A DNA stretch of 50,659 nucleotides from Bacteroidota bacterium (GTDB taxonomy: Bacteria; Bacteroidota; Bacteroidia; Bacteroidales; Prolixibacteraceae), in the NCBI GenBank assembly GCA_030698405.1, contig JAUYMU010000044.1:1-50659 (forward strand). Direction: 5' to 3'. Below the pieces are notes generated by a model that was not told where the DNA came from, searched no databases, and was given only the letters and a program-made list of their open reading frames with translations. Below are positions 38,563 through 43,330 of the stretch, piece by piece. The position numbers and the translations under genes are program-made. The stretch's first letter is position 1. Every line of letters begins with the position of its first letter.

Positions 38563-40065
38563 ATGGAAAACTTTACAACCATATTAAACAATCAGACCAT
38601 TCCGGTGGCCGATATTCCTGAAGTAAACTATGCGACGTTTCTGGAAATGAATACTGGTTTCATTCTCAGTTCTCCGGAAAGGCATTGTGTAAACTATTTC
38701 GGATATCCGGTTAAAAATCAGATTAAACTGATTTGCTGTATTGCTGACGACAATACCCACAATATACATGTATCGTCCTGTTTGGTGAATTCAGTGGATA
38801 CACTTGATTCATTTACCGCCCGGCACTATTGCTTCGAAAAATTTGAACGCGAAATTCATGAAAACTTTGGAATTGGCTACAAGGATCATCCGTGGTTGAA
38901 ACCCGTCAGGTATTCCAAAAACCGCTTCGATCAGTCAAAAACAATCGCCAACTATCCATTTTATTCGATCGACAGCGATGAATTGCACGAAGTTGCAGTT
39001 GGTCCGATCCATGCCGGAGTTATTGAACCCGGACATTTCCGGTTTATCTGCAATGGGGAGCAAATTCTGCATCTCGAAATTCAATTGGGATATCAGCACC
39101 GCGGAATTGAGCAGCAATTTCTGGATAAGAAAAACCTGCTTCAGCGCTCAACCCTTGCCGAATCAATTGCAGGCGATACGGTTGTTGGGCATACCACCAC
39201 CTTTTCACATATTTGGGAAAGCCTCTGCGGAATTCAGCCAACGCGCGATATCGAATTTTCGCGTACGCTGGCTTTGGAGATGGAACGGATGGCCAATCAT
39301 ACCGGCGATTTGAGCGCTGTTTGTGCCGACATTGCCTATCAGTTGGGGAATTCTGTTCTGGGTCGTTTAAGGACGCCTCTTATTAATTTTATGCAGGAAT
39401 GGGGTGGAAACCGCTTGTCGAAAGGATTAATCAGGCCAGGCCGCAACCAGTTTCCTTTTACTCCTGAATTGGCGAAACGGCTGAAAGAGGTGTTTAAAGC
39501 CTACGAACCCGACTTTGTGGAAATGAACAAACAATTGTTCCAGCTACCCAGCGCCCTTTCGAGGTTTGAAAGAACCGGCGTGGTTTCGTACGACGATGTT
39601 TTGTCGATCGGAACGGTTGGAATGGCTGCCCGAATGAGTGGATTGAGCCGCGATATCCGTTCATCTCATCCATACAGCCTTTATCCTGAAATAGCGCATG
39701 AGCCGATCCTTAAACACCATGGCGATGTTTATTCGCGCGTGCAAATACGCAGGCAGGAAGTAATGCAGTCGATGCAATACATCCGAGAACTGATTGAAAA
39801 CGTTCCGGAATATGTTGAAAAAGAACCGGTGGTTGGCAGTCCGAAACCAAATTCATTTGCACTTTCATTGGTTGAAGGTTGGAGAGGCGAGATTTGCCAT
39901 TGTGCCATTACTGACAATTCAGGAGAATTGATTTTGTATAAAATAAAAGATCCGTCATTTCACAATTGGCTGGCTTTGGCGCTGGCCGTGCGCAACAACG
40001 AAATTTCCGATTTTCCGATCTGCAACAAGAGTTTTAGCTTGTCGTATTCAGGCCACGATTTATAA
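38563..40065 (+). CDS. HyfG-like catalytic subunit (NuoC-NuoD fusion) lacking Ni-Fe ligands
   Basis: A 500-residue soluble protein. Residues 1-140 are a NuoC/30-kDa-type domain (FEREIHENFGIGYKDHPWL); the rest is the NuoD/hydrogenase large-subunit fold (EIQLGYQHRGIEQQF; EMERMANHTGDL). In [NiFe] hydrogenases the first metal-binding motif is CGIC; here the aligned stretch is AGDT (203-206, in AESIAGDTVVGH). The second motif, DPCxxC at the C-terminus, is replaced by SFSLSYSGHDL. So all four Ni-Fe cysteines are missing and the protein cannot be a hydrogenase. This is the pattern of energy-converting-hydrogenase-related (Ehr) complexes; the electron donor and acceptor are unknown. Confidence 0.9.
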   Translation: MENFTTILNNQTIPVADIPEVNYATFLEMNTGFILSSPERHCVNYFGYPVKNQIKLICCIADDNTHNIHVSSCLVNSVDTLDSFTARHYCFEKFEREIHENFGIGYKDHPWLKPVRYSKNRFDQSKTIANYPFYSIDSDELHEVAVGPIHAGVIEPGHFRFICNGEQILHLEIQLGYQHRGIEQQFLDKKNLLQRSTLAESIAGDTVVGHTTTFSHIWESLCGIQPTRDIEFSRTLALEMERMANHTGDLSAVCADIAYQLGNSVLGRLRTPLINFMQEWGGNRLSKGLIRPGRNQFPFTPELAKRLKEVFKAYEPDFVEMNKQLFQLPSALSRFERTGVVSYDDVLSIGTVGMAARMSGLSRDIRSSHPYSLYPEIAHEPILKHHGDVYSRVQIRRQEVMQSMQYIRELIENVPEYVEKEPVVGSPKPNSFALSLVEGWRGEICHCAITDNSGELILYKIKDPSFHNWLALALAVRNNEISDFPICNKSFSLSYSGHDL

Positions 40066-40075
40066 AATAGAAACC

Positions 40076-40828
40076 ATGTTCAATAACTTAAAGATAGTCT
40101 ATCATCAGGGGAAACAATACATCCGGAACACTGCGACTACAAAAGTTCCCGGTATTTTCAGGGGCCGTCCGGTTATTAGTACCGAAAAGGTAAATGAAAC
40201 TGAACTGATTGGTTTGTGTCCGGTTAATGCCATTTCGGCCAATCCGGTGAGCATCGATATGGGCAAATGTACTTTCTGTGGCGAATGCGCCAAACAGTTT
40301 CCCAACAAAATCAGATTTACCAGCGAGTATAAAATAGCTACCAACGAACGTGCACGGCTCATCGTTAAAGAAGGCGAAGACAAACTGGTAGAAGTGAATC
40401 CTAAAACAGTCAGAAGCGACATTCATCGTGTATTTGGAAATTCATTAAAGCTACGGCAAGTGAGTGCTGGTGGCGATAACAGTTGCGAGTGGGAATTGAA
40501 TGCTTCGAATAATGTTCAGTTCGATATGGGGCGTTACGGGATCGAATTTGTGGCATCGCCACGCCATGCCGATGGAATTGCAATTACCGGACCGATTACC
40601 GAAAACATGGCCGAAGCTTTACAGATTTGTTACGATGCCGTTCCCGAACCCAAAATAATCGTTTTGGTCGGAACCGATGCCATTAGTGGCGGAATTCATG
40701 CAGGCAGTTCATCCCTAAACCGCAGTTTTCTCGATAAATATCCCGTCGATCTTTACATTCCCGGCAATCCTGCCCATCCGCTGACGATTATTAATGGGCT
40801 GGTTGATTTGACGCGGAAACGAAAGTGA
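40076..40828 (+). CDS. Ferredoxin-NuoB-like fused small subunit (HyfH-HyfI type)
   Basis: A 250-residue protein. Residues about 40-80 form half of a ferredoxin: Cys48 in LCPVNAI plus Cys65, Cys68 and Cys71 in KCTFCGECAKQFP can bind one [4Fe-4S] cluster, while the second cluster's ligands are missing. Residues about 125-245 are NuoB/HyfI-like (GITGPIT-type block, VPEPKIIVLVG). In relatives four cysteines bind the proximal cluster. Only Cys137 remains, and the other three positions read Glu (CEWE), Asp (VGTDAISGG) and Asn (PGNPAHP). The gene ends the operon, and its last codons are duplicated twice downstream. Confidence 0.88.
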   Translation: MFNNLKIVYHQGKQYIRNTATTKVPGIFRGRPVISTEKVNETELIGLCPVNAISANPVSIDMGKCTFCGECAKQFPNKIRFTSEYKIATNERARLIVKEGEDKLVEVNPKTVRSDIHRVFGNSLKLRQVSAGGDNSCEWELNASNNVQFDMGRYGIEFVASPRHADGIAITGPITENMAEALQICYDAVPEPKIIVLVGTDAISGGIHAGSSSLNRSFLDKYPVDLYIPGNPAHPLTIINGLVDLTRKRK

Positions 40829-40940
40829 AAAAGTAAGGTTGAGGAGGAAAGTGATAACTTGGCAACACCGAATTGGTAAGCATAAAAAACTGACAGAATT
40901 CTTGAAAAAATAGTAACTTGCGTTTGATTTGATTTAAGGT

Positions 40941-41258
40941 ATGATTGAAACAGCAAAAATATTTGATATTGTTAATAGGATTGCCACTAAATTCAATCCT
41001 GATAAAATCATTTTATTTGGTTCTTATGCAGCAGGGACTCCAAATAATGATAGTGATTTGGACCTTTTAATCATTCAGGATACAGAATTGCCACCTCATA
41101 GAAGAAGTTTTGCCATTCAAAAATTTTTGATAGGTTCATTGGTTCCGATGGATATACTTGTTTATACCAATAATGAATTTGAACAAGAGCAGAAGGAAAA
41201 ATATTCCTTTATTAGTAATGCTATAAAAACATCAAAAATTCTTTATGAACGCAGATAG
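40941..41258 (+). CDS. MNT-domain nucleotidyltransferase (antitoxin of HEPN/MNT pair)
   Basis: A 105-residue protein with the minimal nucleotidyltransferase motif GSYAAGTPNNDSDLDLLII at residues about 28-46, in which GS and the DxD aspartates bind Mg-NTP. A third acidic residue lies in VPMDILVY. In HEPN/MNT modules the MNT protein acts as antitoxin, often by adding AMP to the HEPN toxin. It overlaps the HEPN gene by 14 bases. Base composition is AT-rich compared with the preceding Ehr genes, consistent with acquisition. It is framed by two copies of the Ehr operon's last codons. Confidence 0.92.
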   Translation: MIETAKIFDIVNRIATKFNPDKIILFGSYAAGTPNNDSDLDLLIIQDTELPPHRRSFAIQKFLIGSLVPMDILVYTNNEFEQEQKEKYSFISNAIKTSKILYERR

Positions 41259-41643
41259 TGAATTGATTAGGGAGTGGATTGATAAAGCTGACCATGATCT
41301 TGGTTCCGCGAAATTGATTTTTCTTCATATTCCTGAATATTTTGATACCATTGCATTTCATTGTCAGCAAGCAACCGAGAAATACATAAAAGCGATGCTT
41401 GTCTATTCTGGGATTGATTTTCAACGTACCCATAATTTAATTTTCCTGCTTGATTTGTTATCTCAAAAGATGGCTTTATCGGAAGATACTTATGACAAAG
41501 CTATCTTGTTAAATGGGTTTAGTGTCCAGATAAGATATCCAAATAAGAACATTTATTTGACAAAGGAAGAATTAGAACTGTCAATCAATATTTCACAAGA
41601 ATTTAGAAATATGGCACTTCAAATTGTCGGAATAAAAGAATAA
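41245..41643 (+). CDS. HEPN domain protein (toxin of HEPN/MNT pair)
   Basis: A 132-residue all-helical protein of the COG2250 class: EWIDKADHDLGSAKLIF at the N-terminus, then FHCQQATEKYIKAMLVYSG and FQRTHNLIFLLDLL. The RTHNL segment takes the place of the RX4-6H RNase motif of other HEPN proteins, and a strict RX4H motif is not visible, so nuclease activity is uncertain. Overlap with the MNT gene indicates co-translation. A copy of the Ehr gene 3' end starts 19 bases after its stop. Confidence 0.9.
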   Translation: MNADSELIREWIDKADHDLGSAKLIFLHIPEYFDTIAFHCQQATEKYIKAMLVYSGIDFQRTHNLIFLLDLLSQKMALSEDTYDKAILLNGFSVQIRYPNKNIYLTKEELELSINISQEFRNMALQIVGIKE

Positions 41644-41661
41644 TGGAAATACTTCTGTCTG

Positions 41662-41739
41662 GGTATTTCGGGTAATCCGGCTCATCTGCTGACGATTATT
41701 AATGGACTGGTTGACTTGACGAGGAAACGAAAAATTTAA
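41662..41739 (+). repeat. Copy B of the Ehr small-subunit gene 3' end
   Basis: In frame this reads GISGNPAHLLTIINGLVDL, then TRKRKI and a stop, matching the C-terminus of the gene at 40076-40828 (copy A, 40750-40828). Over 62 aligned bases it differs from copy A at 7 positions, mostly synonymous. It has no start codon and lies directly after the HEPN gene. The core CTGACGATTATTAATGG (41689-41705) is identical in all three copies. Confidence 0.9.
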
Positions 41740-41791
41740 AAATCGTTCCATCGGATTAAAATTCGGAGCTGCATCAATTCTGCATACCAGC

Positions 41792-41845
41792 CATACTAAT
41801 CCTTGCAGCGATTAGTATGTGAGTTGTTTAAGCCAACTTTTTTTT
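41792..41845 (+). terminator. Hairpin and weak terminator between TA cassettes
   Basis: CATACTAATC (41792-41801) and GATTAGTATG (41810-41819) are perfect arms around an 8-base loop. A second short hairpin, AGTTG/CAACT (41822-41838), is followed by a run of T. Either could end the HEPN/MNT transcript before hicB. Confidence 0.5.
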
Positions 41846-41906
41846 GTTACTTTTACCTCGTAAATCTCAAAACACAAGCAATAATAATAGCTGTTTAAAA
41901 ATTACC

Positions 41907-42143
41907 ATGAAGACAAAAGATAAAATATTGCACCTTCGCATCCTCGTCGAACAGGACGAAGACAATGTTTATATTGTTAGTTGCCCTGTTTTCAAAGGTT
42001 GCCACTCTTATGGCAAAACCATTGATGAAGCCTTGGCAAACATCAAAGAGGTGATTGATATTTGCATGGATGAAGAAAAGGAGAAAGTTACTGAAATAAA
42101 CCGCTTTGTAGGTTTTAGGGAGATGCAGGTGACAATTGTTTAA
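41907..42143 (+). CDS. hicB: HicB family antitoxin
   Basis: I start at ATG 41907 (MKTKDKILHLRILVEQDEDN), giving 78 residues; an earlier in-frame start adds a poor N-terminus. The HicB partial RNase-H-like fold is clear: VYIVSCPVFKGCHSYGKTIDEALANIKEVIDIC. No C-terminal DNA-binding domain is visible. The partner HicA toxin is reduced to a C-terminal fragment directly downstream, so this is an antitoxin without a working toxin. It is framed by copies B and C of the Ehr gene end. Confidence 0.88.
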   Translation: MKTKDKILHLRILVEQDEDNVYIVSCPVFKGCHSYGKTIDEALANIKEVIDICMDEEKEKVTEINRFVGFREMQVTIV

Positions 42144-42146
42144 GAT

Positions 42147-42227
42147 CTTCCCAAAGGATTGATGCGTAAAATAATCCGTGAAGACCTGGACATGGAAATG
42201 GCTGAGTTCCTGAACTTGTTGAAGTGA
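42147..42227 (+). pseudogene. hicA: C-terminal remnant of a HicA toxin
   Basis: Translation in frame from 42147 gives LPKGLMRKIIREDLDMEMAE, then FLNLLK and TGA at 42225-42227. This matches the last third of HicA proteins (the KG..R.I....D....EFL pattern). The N-terminal half with the double-stranded-RNA-binding-like fold and its catalytic His is absent. The stop overlaps the first base of copy C of the Ehr gene end. Confidence 0.8.
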
Positions 42228-42322
42228 AATATCAATTCGATCTATACATTTCGGGCAATCCTGCAAATCCGCTGACGATTATTAATGGATTGCTGGATTT
42301 GACGAGAAAGAGGAAAATCTAA
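42227..42322 (+). repeat. Copy C of the Ehr small-subunit gene 3' end
   Basis: In frame it reads KYQFDLYISGNPANPLTIIN followed by GLLDLTRKRKI and a stop, matching the final 30 residues of the 40076-40828 gene. It differs from copy A at 11 of 62 aligned bases and from copy B at 13, again mostly without changing the protein. The shared 17-base core lies at 42272-42288. It directly follows the HicA remnant. Confidence 0.9.
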
Positions 42323-42364
42323 AAAGGGAGTTTATTTACAGGTTGATGATTTTCAAAGTTGCTT

Positions 42365-42625
42365 TTATTTTTGTTTCCGCCTTACATCAATTCTCGCCTG
42401 CGACATTCGTTCCCGTAGCCCACCTTCCTGTAAAAATTCTTTTTCCAGTGTTTTTAACTGTTTGGCGAGTAAGAAGGAAGTTATATTGATCAAGCCAATC
42501 ATCACATTGGCCGATACTTCTGGATCAGGATTTTCAATGCCTTTCCGGTAGGTTATCAAACGTTCGTAACCACCATGTTTGGGGATAAAACCATCGGGGT
42601 TATATTGTTTATCCATTGGCCTCAT
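42365..42625 (-). CDS. Internally deleted four-helix-bundle suffix protein
   Basis: An 86-residue product. The N-terminus NPDGFIPKHGGYERLITYRK and the C-terminus LLAKQLKTLEKEFLQEGGLR ERMSQARIDVRRKQK are the two ends of a four-helix-bundle protein family (S23-like) that is normally about 180-200 residues long. The two helices between them are missing, yet the frame is kept, so roughly 100 residues were lost in frame. It may be a non-functional remnant or a mini-protein. It lies 43 bases beyond copy C, on the opposite strand, at the edge of the rearranged zone. Confidence 0.65.
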   Translation of the reverse strand: MRPMDKQYNPDGFIPKHGGYERLITYRKGIENPDPEVSANVMIGLINITSFLLAKQLKTLEKEFLQEGGLRERMSQARIDVRRKQK

Positions 42626-42802
42626 TTTTTTTATTTTTCTTATCGTTGGACAATTGTGACTTCGTGGACGGTTAAAGTGTCAAGATTGTCAAATTTGTCC
42701 AACGAAAGTTACTGTTTATTTACCTTATTTTCACAATCTCCGACGCAGTTAACCTTTATAATTCATAAAGAAAATTGCTTTTTATCTATTCCGTCCACAT
42801 AC

Positions 42803-43330
42803 TCACAGTATCTTCTGAAACATCAACTCATTTTTCCAGCCTTCCAAAGTGCGGCGCCAATCTTTTTTTGTGCCGGAAAGTTCAAACCCGTTGTTTTTGA
42901 ACAATTGAATACTTGCCAGGTTGTCAGCAGTAATATTGGCAAACAACTGATGCAAACGAAGATAATTGGCGGCATAGCTGCAAAGTAGTTGAAGGGCATC
43001 ATTGGCATAACCCATTCTGCGGTCTTTTTCATCGTGAATCAGAATGCCCACGCCGGCCCTGAAATGGAAAGGATCAAAATCGAACAGGTCGATGGCGCCG
43101 ACAGCTTTTCCTTCCAGCGTTTCAATAATCATGCGTAGCTGCTTGCTTTCGTAGATGTCGCGCTGCGAGTCCTTGATGTATTTGGCCAGAATATATTTTG
43201 AGAATGGTTCATAAGTGTTGCTCACTTCCCAGATTTCTGCATCGTTTTCCCATTCGTACAACAAGTCGATGTCGTCGGGTTCCAAAGCCCTGAAAAGAAT
43301 TTTGCCAAATTCAAGTTTGTGGTGAATCAT
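42803..43330 (-). CDS. GNAT family N-acetyltransferase
   Basis: A 175-residue cytoplasmic acetyltransferase of the RimJ/RimL or SpeG-like type. It has ILFRALEPDDIDLLYEWEND at the start, VGAIDLFDFDPFHFRAGVGI (strand 4 and the acetyl-CoA pyrophosphate region) and MGYANDALQLLCSYAANYLRLHQL, ending ASIQLFKNNGFELSG. Related enzymes acetylate spermidine or protein N-termini; the substrate here is not determined. It starts within the last four bases of the glycosyltransferase gene (ATGA), so the two are translationally coupled. Confidence 0.9.
   Translation of the reverse strand: MIHHKLEFGKILFRALEPDDIDLLYEWENDAEIWEVSNTYEPFSKYILAKYIKDSQRDIYESKQLRMIIETLEGKAVGAIDLFDFDPFHFRAGVGILIHDEKDRRMGYANDALQLLCSYAANYLRLHQLFANITADNLASIQLFKNNGFELSGTKKDWRRTLEGWKNELMFQKIL

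Follow-up and report, generated by a model that had tools for sequence, protein, structure and literature searches.

How do the last codons of an ordinary protein gene come to stand three times over, with a different toxin-antitoxin (TA) module between successive copies? The question is raised by a stretch of 50,659 nucleotides (contig JAUYMU010000044.1 of a bacterium in the family Prolixibacteraceae; contig 51 of a 5.49-Mb assembly), which as a whole is called the window here. The gene concerned presumably encodes the small subunit of Ehr; the Ehr label, for this gene and for the large-subunit gene beside it, comes from the original prediction and is kept as our assumption. The explanation that we favor, with a probability of roughly 0.58, is that species recombine with one another at the 3' ends of genes, an event that brings in a TA module together with a replacement gene end and leaves the old end stranded downstream. 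It draws on intermediate states of the site among congeners, the movement of the modules, the resident flank at the Ehr site, mostly synonymous divergence between the gene ends, and the occurrence of the same layout at other genes.

Gene ends and modules at the Ehr site

The working Ehr small-subunit gene (positions 40076 to 40828, forward strand, as are all features through copy C; 250 amino acids; PF01058, Oxidored_q6) closes with end A, its own last 30 codons and stop (40736 to 40828). Behind it are an MNT nucleotidyltransferase gene, an antitoxin by family (40941 to 41258; NTP_transf_2, PF01909/PF18765), and a HEPN gene, a toxin by family (41245 to 41643; PF05168), followed by copy B, a displaced gene end of about 25 codons (41662 to 41739). 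A hicB-like antitoxin gene of 78 codons (41907 to 42143; PF15919) and the 3' part of a hicA gene (42144 to 42226) come next, and then copy C, a displaced gene end of 31 codons (42227 to 42322) that runs on into the resident flank. The order is A, MNT-HEPN, B, hicB plus hicA remnant, C. The threefold occurrence of the gene end, which had been noticed by inspection, is borne out by a repeat search of positions 39900 to 42900, which recovers A, B, and C, and by tblastn with the last 45 amino acids of the gene, which finds C at an E value of 2e-13 and B at 8e-10. The 17-base core said to be identical in all three copies is exact at 40781, 41689, and 42272; elsewhere in the 5.49-Mb genome no site matches it with 0 or 1 mismatch, and two sites match it with 2. 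Over the 62 bases around the core, A and B differ at 8 positions, A and C at 12, and B and C at 13, so that of the predicted range of 7 to 13 the upper figure stands and the lower one becomes 8. The best match of these 62 bases of A to the rest of the window, on either strand, is 32/62, compared with 54/62 for B and 50/62 for C. The reading of the short hicA piece as a remnant also holds, since it aligns with a complete 77-amino-acid HicA gene (PF07927) in the congener G004 and lacks about 175 bp of it.

We compared 23 genomes of the genus, the window's own genome being G000; its near relatives with names are metagenome bins of Bacteroidota, Bacteroidales, and Prolixibacteraceae. Of the 23 genomes, 13 contain a close match to the Ehr small-subunit gene over its full length, and 5 of these 13 (G000, G007, G010, G006, and G004) carry extra copies of the gene end. 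In G018 and G011 the site is empty, with a GNAT acetyltransferase gene about 140 bp after the Ehr gene; the corresponding GNAT gene of the window lies at 42803 to 43330 on the reverse strand (PF13302). The site is empty in G014 as well, where one further open reading frame (ORF) separates the Ehr and GNAT genes. Single modules with one extra gene-end copy are found in G006 (MNT-HEPN) and in G004 (hicB and a complete hicA), while G007 has a double array like that of the window and G010 has MNT-HEPN, hicB, and the hicA remnant with one extra copy. MNT-HEPN follows the Ehr gene in G002 and no gene-end copy was found there; in G021 and G016 other ORFs, which by eye look like toxins or antitoxins, follow it without a copy. 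Empty, single, and double states are thus all present among congeners, as expected from the stepwise insertion that had been proposed, and the empty sites mean that the arrangement is not universal.

Two further observations concern single genomes. The extra copy in G004 is interrupted at the core near a contig end (end of L040), and its remainder opens contig 186 (start of L166), with GTTAAC on both sides of the split, as after insertion of an insertion sequence. In G015 (L335, G015:C19), a genome that is 88% complete and that yielded no full Ehr gene, hicBA stands directly ahead of the same GNAT gene.

Copy C, together with what lies downstream of it, aligns at 88% identity with the end of the gene in G014 and the sequence that follows it (1402 to 1729 against -89 to 239). 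An independent case comes from outside the genus: in a Bacteroidales bin (L111), an FKBP gene (PF00254) separates the Ehr gene from a decayed copy, and what follows this copy is almost the same sequence as the flank in L112, a relative with an empty site. The flank behind the displaced end was examined at the Ehr site, in these two lineages, and in both it continues as in the relative without an insertion, which upholds the prediction that C is the displaced resident end. At the other end of the array, the identity of G000 to G010, G014, and G002 in 45-bp windows is 0.82 to 0.98 in the five windows before -90, 0.80 to 0.91 at -90, and 0.71 to 0.78 in the last 45 bp of the gene. The drop is seen in G000 and G007, and it is the kind of pattern that an incoming gene end would leave.

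In a wider survey the Ehr gene was found in 174 of 181 loci; 146 of the genes were distinct, and 137 of these 146 had at least 700 bp downstream. Empty sites occur in L112 and L103, and an adjacent tail-only copy accompanies 7 of the distinct Ehr genes. L150 was considered as an eighth case and rejected for its weak match (40% identity). In L252 (G366), outside the genus, a WG-repeat gene (PF14903) stands between the Ehr gene and the copy. Gene ends also occur apart from the gene: L226 (G420) has one at 2747 to 2842 ahead of an ORF that looks smpB-like by eye, with the full gene on another contig, and L228 (G048) has one of 58 codons at 1248 to 1430 whose upstream part is absent, in a genome without a full close match.

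Distant congeners resemble each other more in the modules than in the host gene. Between G000 and G006, MNT is 89.9% and HEPN 90.0% identical, compared with 76.7% for the Ehr gene over its first 220 codons, and fourfold sites differ at 4/19, 6/20, and 34/60, respectively. Between G000 and G004, HicB is 86.5% identical and the Ehr gene 77.7%. In the close pair G000/G007, MNT is 99.7% identical and is flanked by an Ehr gene of 95.2% and a GNAT gene of 90.0% identity. Because the modules are more alike than the gene beside them, these comparisons indicate that both modules moved horizontally between distant congeners.

The same layout at other genes of the genus

A first control of 855 genes in 97 Ehr loci, of which 82 are Ehr genes by motif count, found 8 tail-only copies, of which 7 belonged to the Ehr gene and 1 to another gene, besides 5 full paralogues. 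This suggested that the Ehr gene is a special site, an idea overturned by the same layout at other genes. In a genus-wide sample from 12 chosen genomes of the one genus, we examined 30 of 95 HEPN, 30 of 58 HicA, and 30 of 62 PIN matches, with 30 of 51 GNAT matches as a control. Direct repeats bracket the module at 13/30 HEPN, 4/30 HicA, and 9/30 PIN loci and at 0/30 GNAT loci, which is 26/90 TA loci versus 0/30 (P = 0.0002), or 21/85 when five previously known loci are removed (P = 0.002). Part of the repeats at TA loci are intergenic, as judged by eye. Overlapping control windows have bracketing repeats in 24 of 662 cases, three of them Ehr cassettes; the Fisher test set aside four control matches as Ehr cassettes, of which three are. 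A tail-only copy of the flanking gene lies beyond the module at 7/30 HEPN, 7/30 PIN, and 0/30 GNAT loci (HEPN plus PIN versus GNAT, P = 0.004). Five of these 14 loci were known beforehand (three Ehr loci, L346, and L455), and L437, which depends on a doubtful ORF, is kept in the 7/30; without these six, the comparison is 8/54 versus 0/30 (P = 0.046).

By Pfam, the host genes are EamA, ACT_8, Gfo/Idh/MocA, tRNA_U5-meth_tr, squalene/phytoene synthase, ACR_tran, QueF, and DNA polymerase III alpha. PGI (pgi) is a further one, found by reading relatives of HEPN and HicB in the genus. The QueF gene is a host in G006, and the gene in G021 is alike by eye. The window's genome has a second three-copy array (L435, G000:C81), in which a squalene/phytoene synthase gene is followed by a methyltransferase gene, a copy, a PIN gene with a small ORF upstream of it, and another copy. 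The layout is found at some ten genes of the genus besides the Ehr gene, and since the core varies between species as well, the view of the Ehr gene as a particular attachment site is not upheld. Modules at two loci, L347 (G009:C57) and L340 (G010:C31), are bracketed by copies of the 5' part of a gene (432 bp and 40 bp) and not of its 3' end.

Origin of the duplicated gene ends

In the explanation that we favor, a related species would supply each TA module already attached to its own form of the neighboring gene's 3' end. The recipient's gene would recombine within its conserved 3' part, take on the incoming end, and be followed by the module, and the recipient's old end would be left stranded downstream of the module. 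Two such events at the Ehr gene would produce the order A, MNT-HEPN, B, HicB(A), C. On one side the route would probably rely on homologous pairing within the gene end and, on the other, on a join between sequences that share no long homology, resembling homology-facilitated illegitimate recombination. Once a module stands between two gene ends, ordinary homologous recombination may spread it, and no dedicated recombinase would be necessary. Recombination between divergent relatives had been named in the original prediction as the alternative to insertion by an element, and it is the version that fits best. If it holds, species exchange the ends of ordinary genes along with the TA cargo. A wider version, which is possible but which we put forward tentatively, is that TA modules spread between species by bringing along part of the neighbor's 3' end, which would provide a homology arm from the start. 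With each acquisition the gene end would be replaced in frame, and each stranded end would serve as the arm for the next transfer. If this were true, chromosomal TA modules would be recombination cassettes needing no mobile element, and stacked displaced gene ends would record the order in which modules arrived.

A different origin for the repeats is insertion with long target duplication, in which the cell copies 50 to 180 bp of its own target when the module inserts and the copies diverge later. Such insertion is described for restriction-modification genes (PMC3874152), and the repeats that bracket TA modules at many loci fit it, as do EamA, the pgi flank, and Ehr in G006, together with the variants that ends within one genome have in common. 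However, if a cell had duplicated its own target, the stranded copy would decay and the differences would be largely nonsynonymous. Sixteen pairs of working and displaced ends, partly nonindependent and without the squalene/phytoene synthase A/B pair, differ by 130 synonymous and 52 nonsynonymous changes at 322 and 1130 sites (pS 0.40, pN 0.05). For simulation, 12 pairs were kept, G000 A/B and A/C, G007 A/B, and G010 A/C being dropped as not independent, and in these 12 synonymous changes make up an observed fraction of 0.71. When self-duplication is simulated with a neutral displaced copy, an omega of 0.05 for the working end, and a transition bias of 3, the mean fraction is 0.38 (0.27 to 0.52), and none of 300 runs reaches 0.71. 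Setting the omega of the displaced end to 0.3, as an intermediate case, yields 0.62, and the observed value is reached in 2 of 300 runs. We consider target duplication unlikely as the general explanation. Site-specific integration, by which small cassettes that lack an integrase of their own would be inserted in trans at an attachment site in the gene's 3' end, would agree with the fact that most Ehr copies are of about 20 to 33 codons with the same core, those in G048 and G506 being of 58 codons. It is improbable given that the core codons (0.42) and the tail (0.44) show the same level of synonymous variation as the remainder of the gene (0.36 to 0.43), which gives no sign of a DNA recognition site and is the reason for rejecting a sequence-constrained core, and given that the ends of the other host genes are unrelated. 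Integrase searches (PF00589) in 13 genomes found none within 60 kb on the gene's contig, several of these contigs being under 17 kb. A tyrosine recombinase lies within 8 kb downstream at 3 of 146 Ehr loci and is adjacent at none, in a search with 12 mostly Xer-like seeds that is not exhaustive and that did not include serine recombinases; to this extent the earlier statement that no integrase is present is confirmed.

Assembly might instead have joined strain variants into chimeras, and 79 of the 80 loci with record titles do come from metagenomes or uncultured bins, the other being from an isolate. Yet the boundaries recur across assemblies (C in G000, G007, and G010; queF in G006 and G021), and displaced copies show stops and other decay (L111), which makes chimeras very improbable. 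Local tandem duplication of a gene end with the gene downstream has an example in G506, where a 224-bp stretch that starts at the gene end is repeated at 90% identity and followed by a second WG-repeat gene; this repeat is a local tandem duplication. In the window, where such duplication had been named as the finding that would speak against insertion, the segments between the copies are unrelated and the homology of the copies stops at the end of the gene, so that this origin is extremely improbable there. An attachment site taken from phages or plasmids was considered and rejected: a degenerate pattern of the core has 0 matches in a viral collection. The 36-amino-acid tail matches 4 plasmid records (50 to 61% identity) and 3 phage records (46 to 50%), and the HEPN protein matches 2 plasmid records (33 to 37%). 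A diversity-generating retroelement was dropped on layout alone, with no search for a reverse transcriptase made.

Several observations weigh against between-species recombination as the full account. A simulation with two working ends gives a synonymous fraction of 0.82 (0.74 to 0.93), and all 300 runs exceed the observed 0.71, so part of the divergence is decay. The pairs therefore suggest that displaced ends spent most, not all, of their divergence inside working genes; the original prediction that the copies were selected as parts of working genes before they arrived stands for most of the divergence (0/300 by self-duplication) and fails for the remainder. Nonsynonymous changes exceed synonymous ones in EamA and equal them in Ehr of G006, and the two are nearly equal in Gfo/Idh and in squalene/phytoene synthase. 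At pgi the near identity of the repeat extends beyond the stop and into a hairpin, a pattern better explained by self-duplication or conversion. Ends within G004, G006, and G010 and at queF have local variants in common, indicating that gene conversion between ends acts too. No gene-tail copies were found at HicA loci (0/30). Identity does not drop at the end of A in G004 or G006, so that the replacement end predicted for A is suggested in G000 and G007, by their lowest identity in the last 45 bp, and not in these two genomes. Finally, the Ehr gene is 91.5% identical between G000 and G010, yet MNT is 84.6%, HEPN 87.5%, and HicB 85.0% identical; in this pair the modules either arrived separately or diverged faster.

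The remaining features near the array are the upstream gene for the large (49-kDa-like) Ehr subunit (38563 to 40065, forward strand; PF00346) and, downstream of C, an 86-amino-acid ORF (42365 to 42625, reverse strand) that has no Pfam match. Both ends of this ORF match a 181-amino-acid ORF at the same place in G010, and the middle is missing. Between it and the GNAT gene is an inverted repeat of 18 nucleotides, 89% complementary, with a spacing of 27 nucleotides (42643 to 42660 and 42688 to 42705).

Comparison with known systems

How chromosomal TA modules move without a nearby transposon, phage, or integron is, to our knowledge, an open question. Among the literature titles and abstract openings searched, in which subscription papers are poorly covered, none names TA modules between duplicated gene ends. 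cis-mobilizable elements (CIMEs) lack an integrase and lie between attachment repeats, and other elements sit at the 3' ends of genes. The arrays described here are like these in that the gene end is restored, the old end is displaced, and accretion is serial; they are unlike them in that no integrase was found, there is no conserved attachment sequence, and the host genes are many and different. Insertion with long target duplication has reportedly been described for restriction-modification systems by Nobusato (2000) and Furuta (2010).

Arrays of type VI secretion system (T6SS) immunity genes and rhs genes undergo 3'-end displacement, for which homology-facilitated illegitimate recombination is proposed (PMC5361080). 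There, modules are likewise added successively behind a conserved part of a gene, with old 3' ends and their partners pushed downstream, and at the Ehr site the resident 3' end is indeed kept downstream of the new module. What is displaced in those arrays is the end of a different effector along with its immunity gene; here the host is an ordinary gene whose old and new ends specify almost the same peptide, and a separate TA pair forms the cargo.

The nearest described pattern is the insertion of restriction-modification genes with long target duplication, as given in three papers (PMC3874152, PMC3031569, and PMC2654758). In both cases, addiction-type modules with no transposase of their own are flanked on both sides by direct repeats of the order of 100 bp, and relatives have empty sites, which here were found at the Ehr site. 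In contrast, the modules here are TA modules, gene 3' ends are prominent, and most repeat pairs appear to be gene ends that evolved for the most part separately; the pooled divergence does not indicate copies of one target, although single pairs such as EamA fit. The layout stands behind about ten genes in one genus, and at each of them two gene ends can be read, which makes the route testable.

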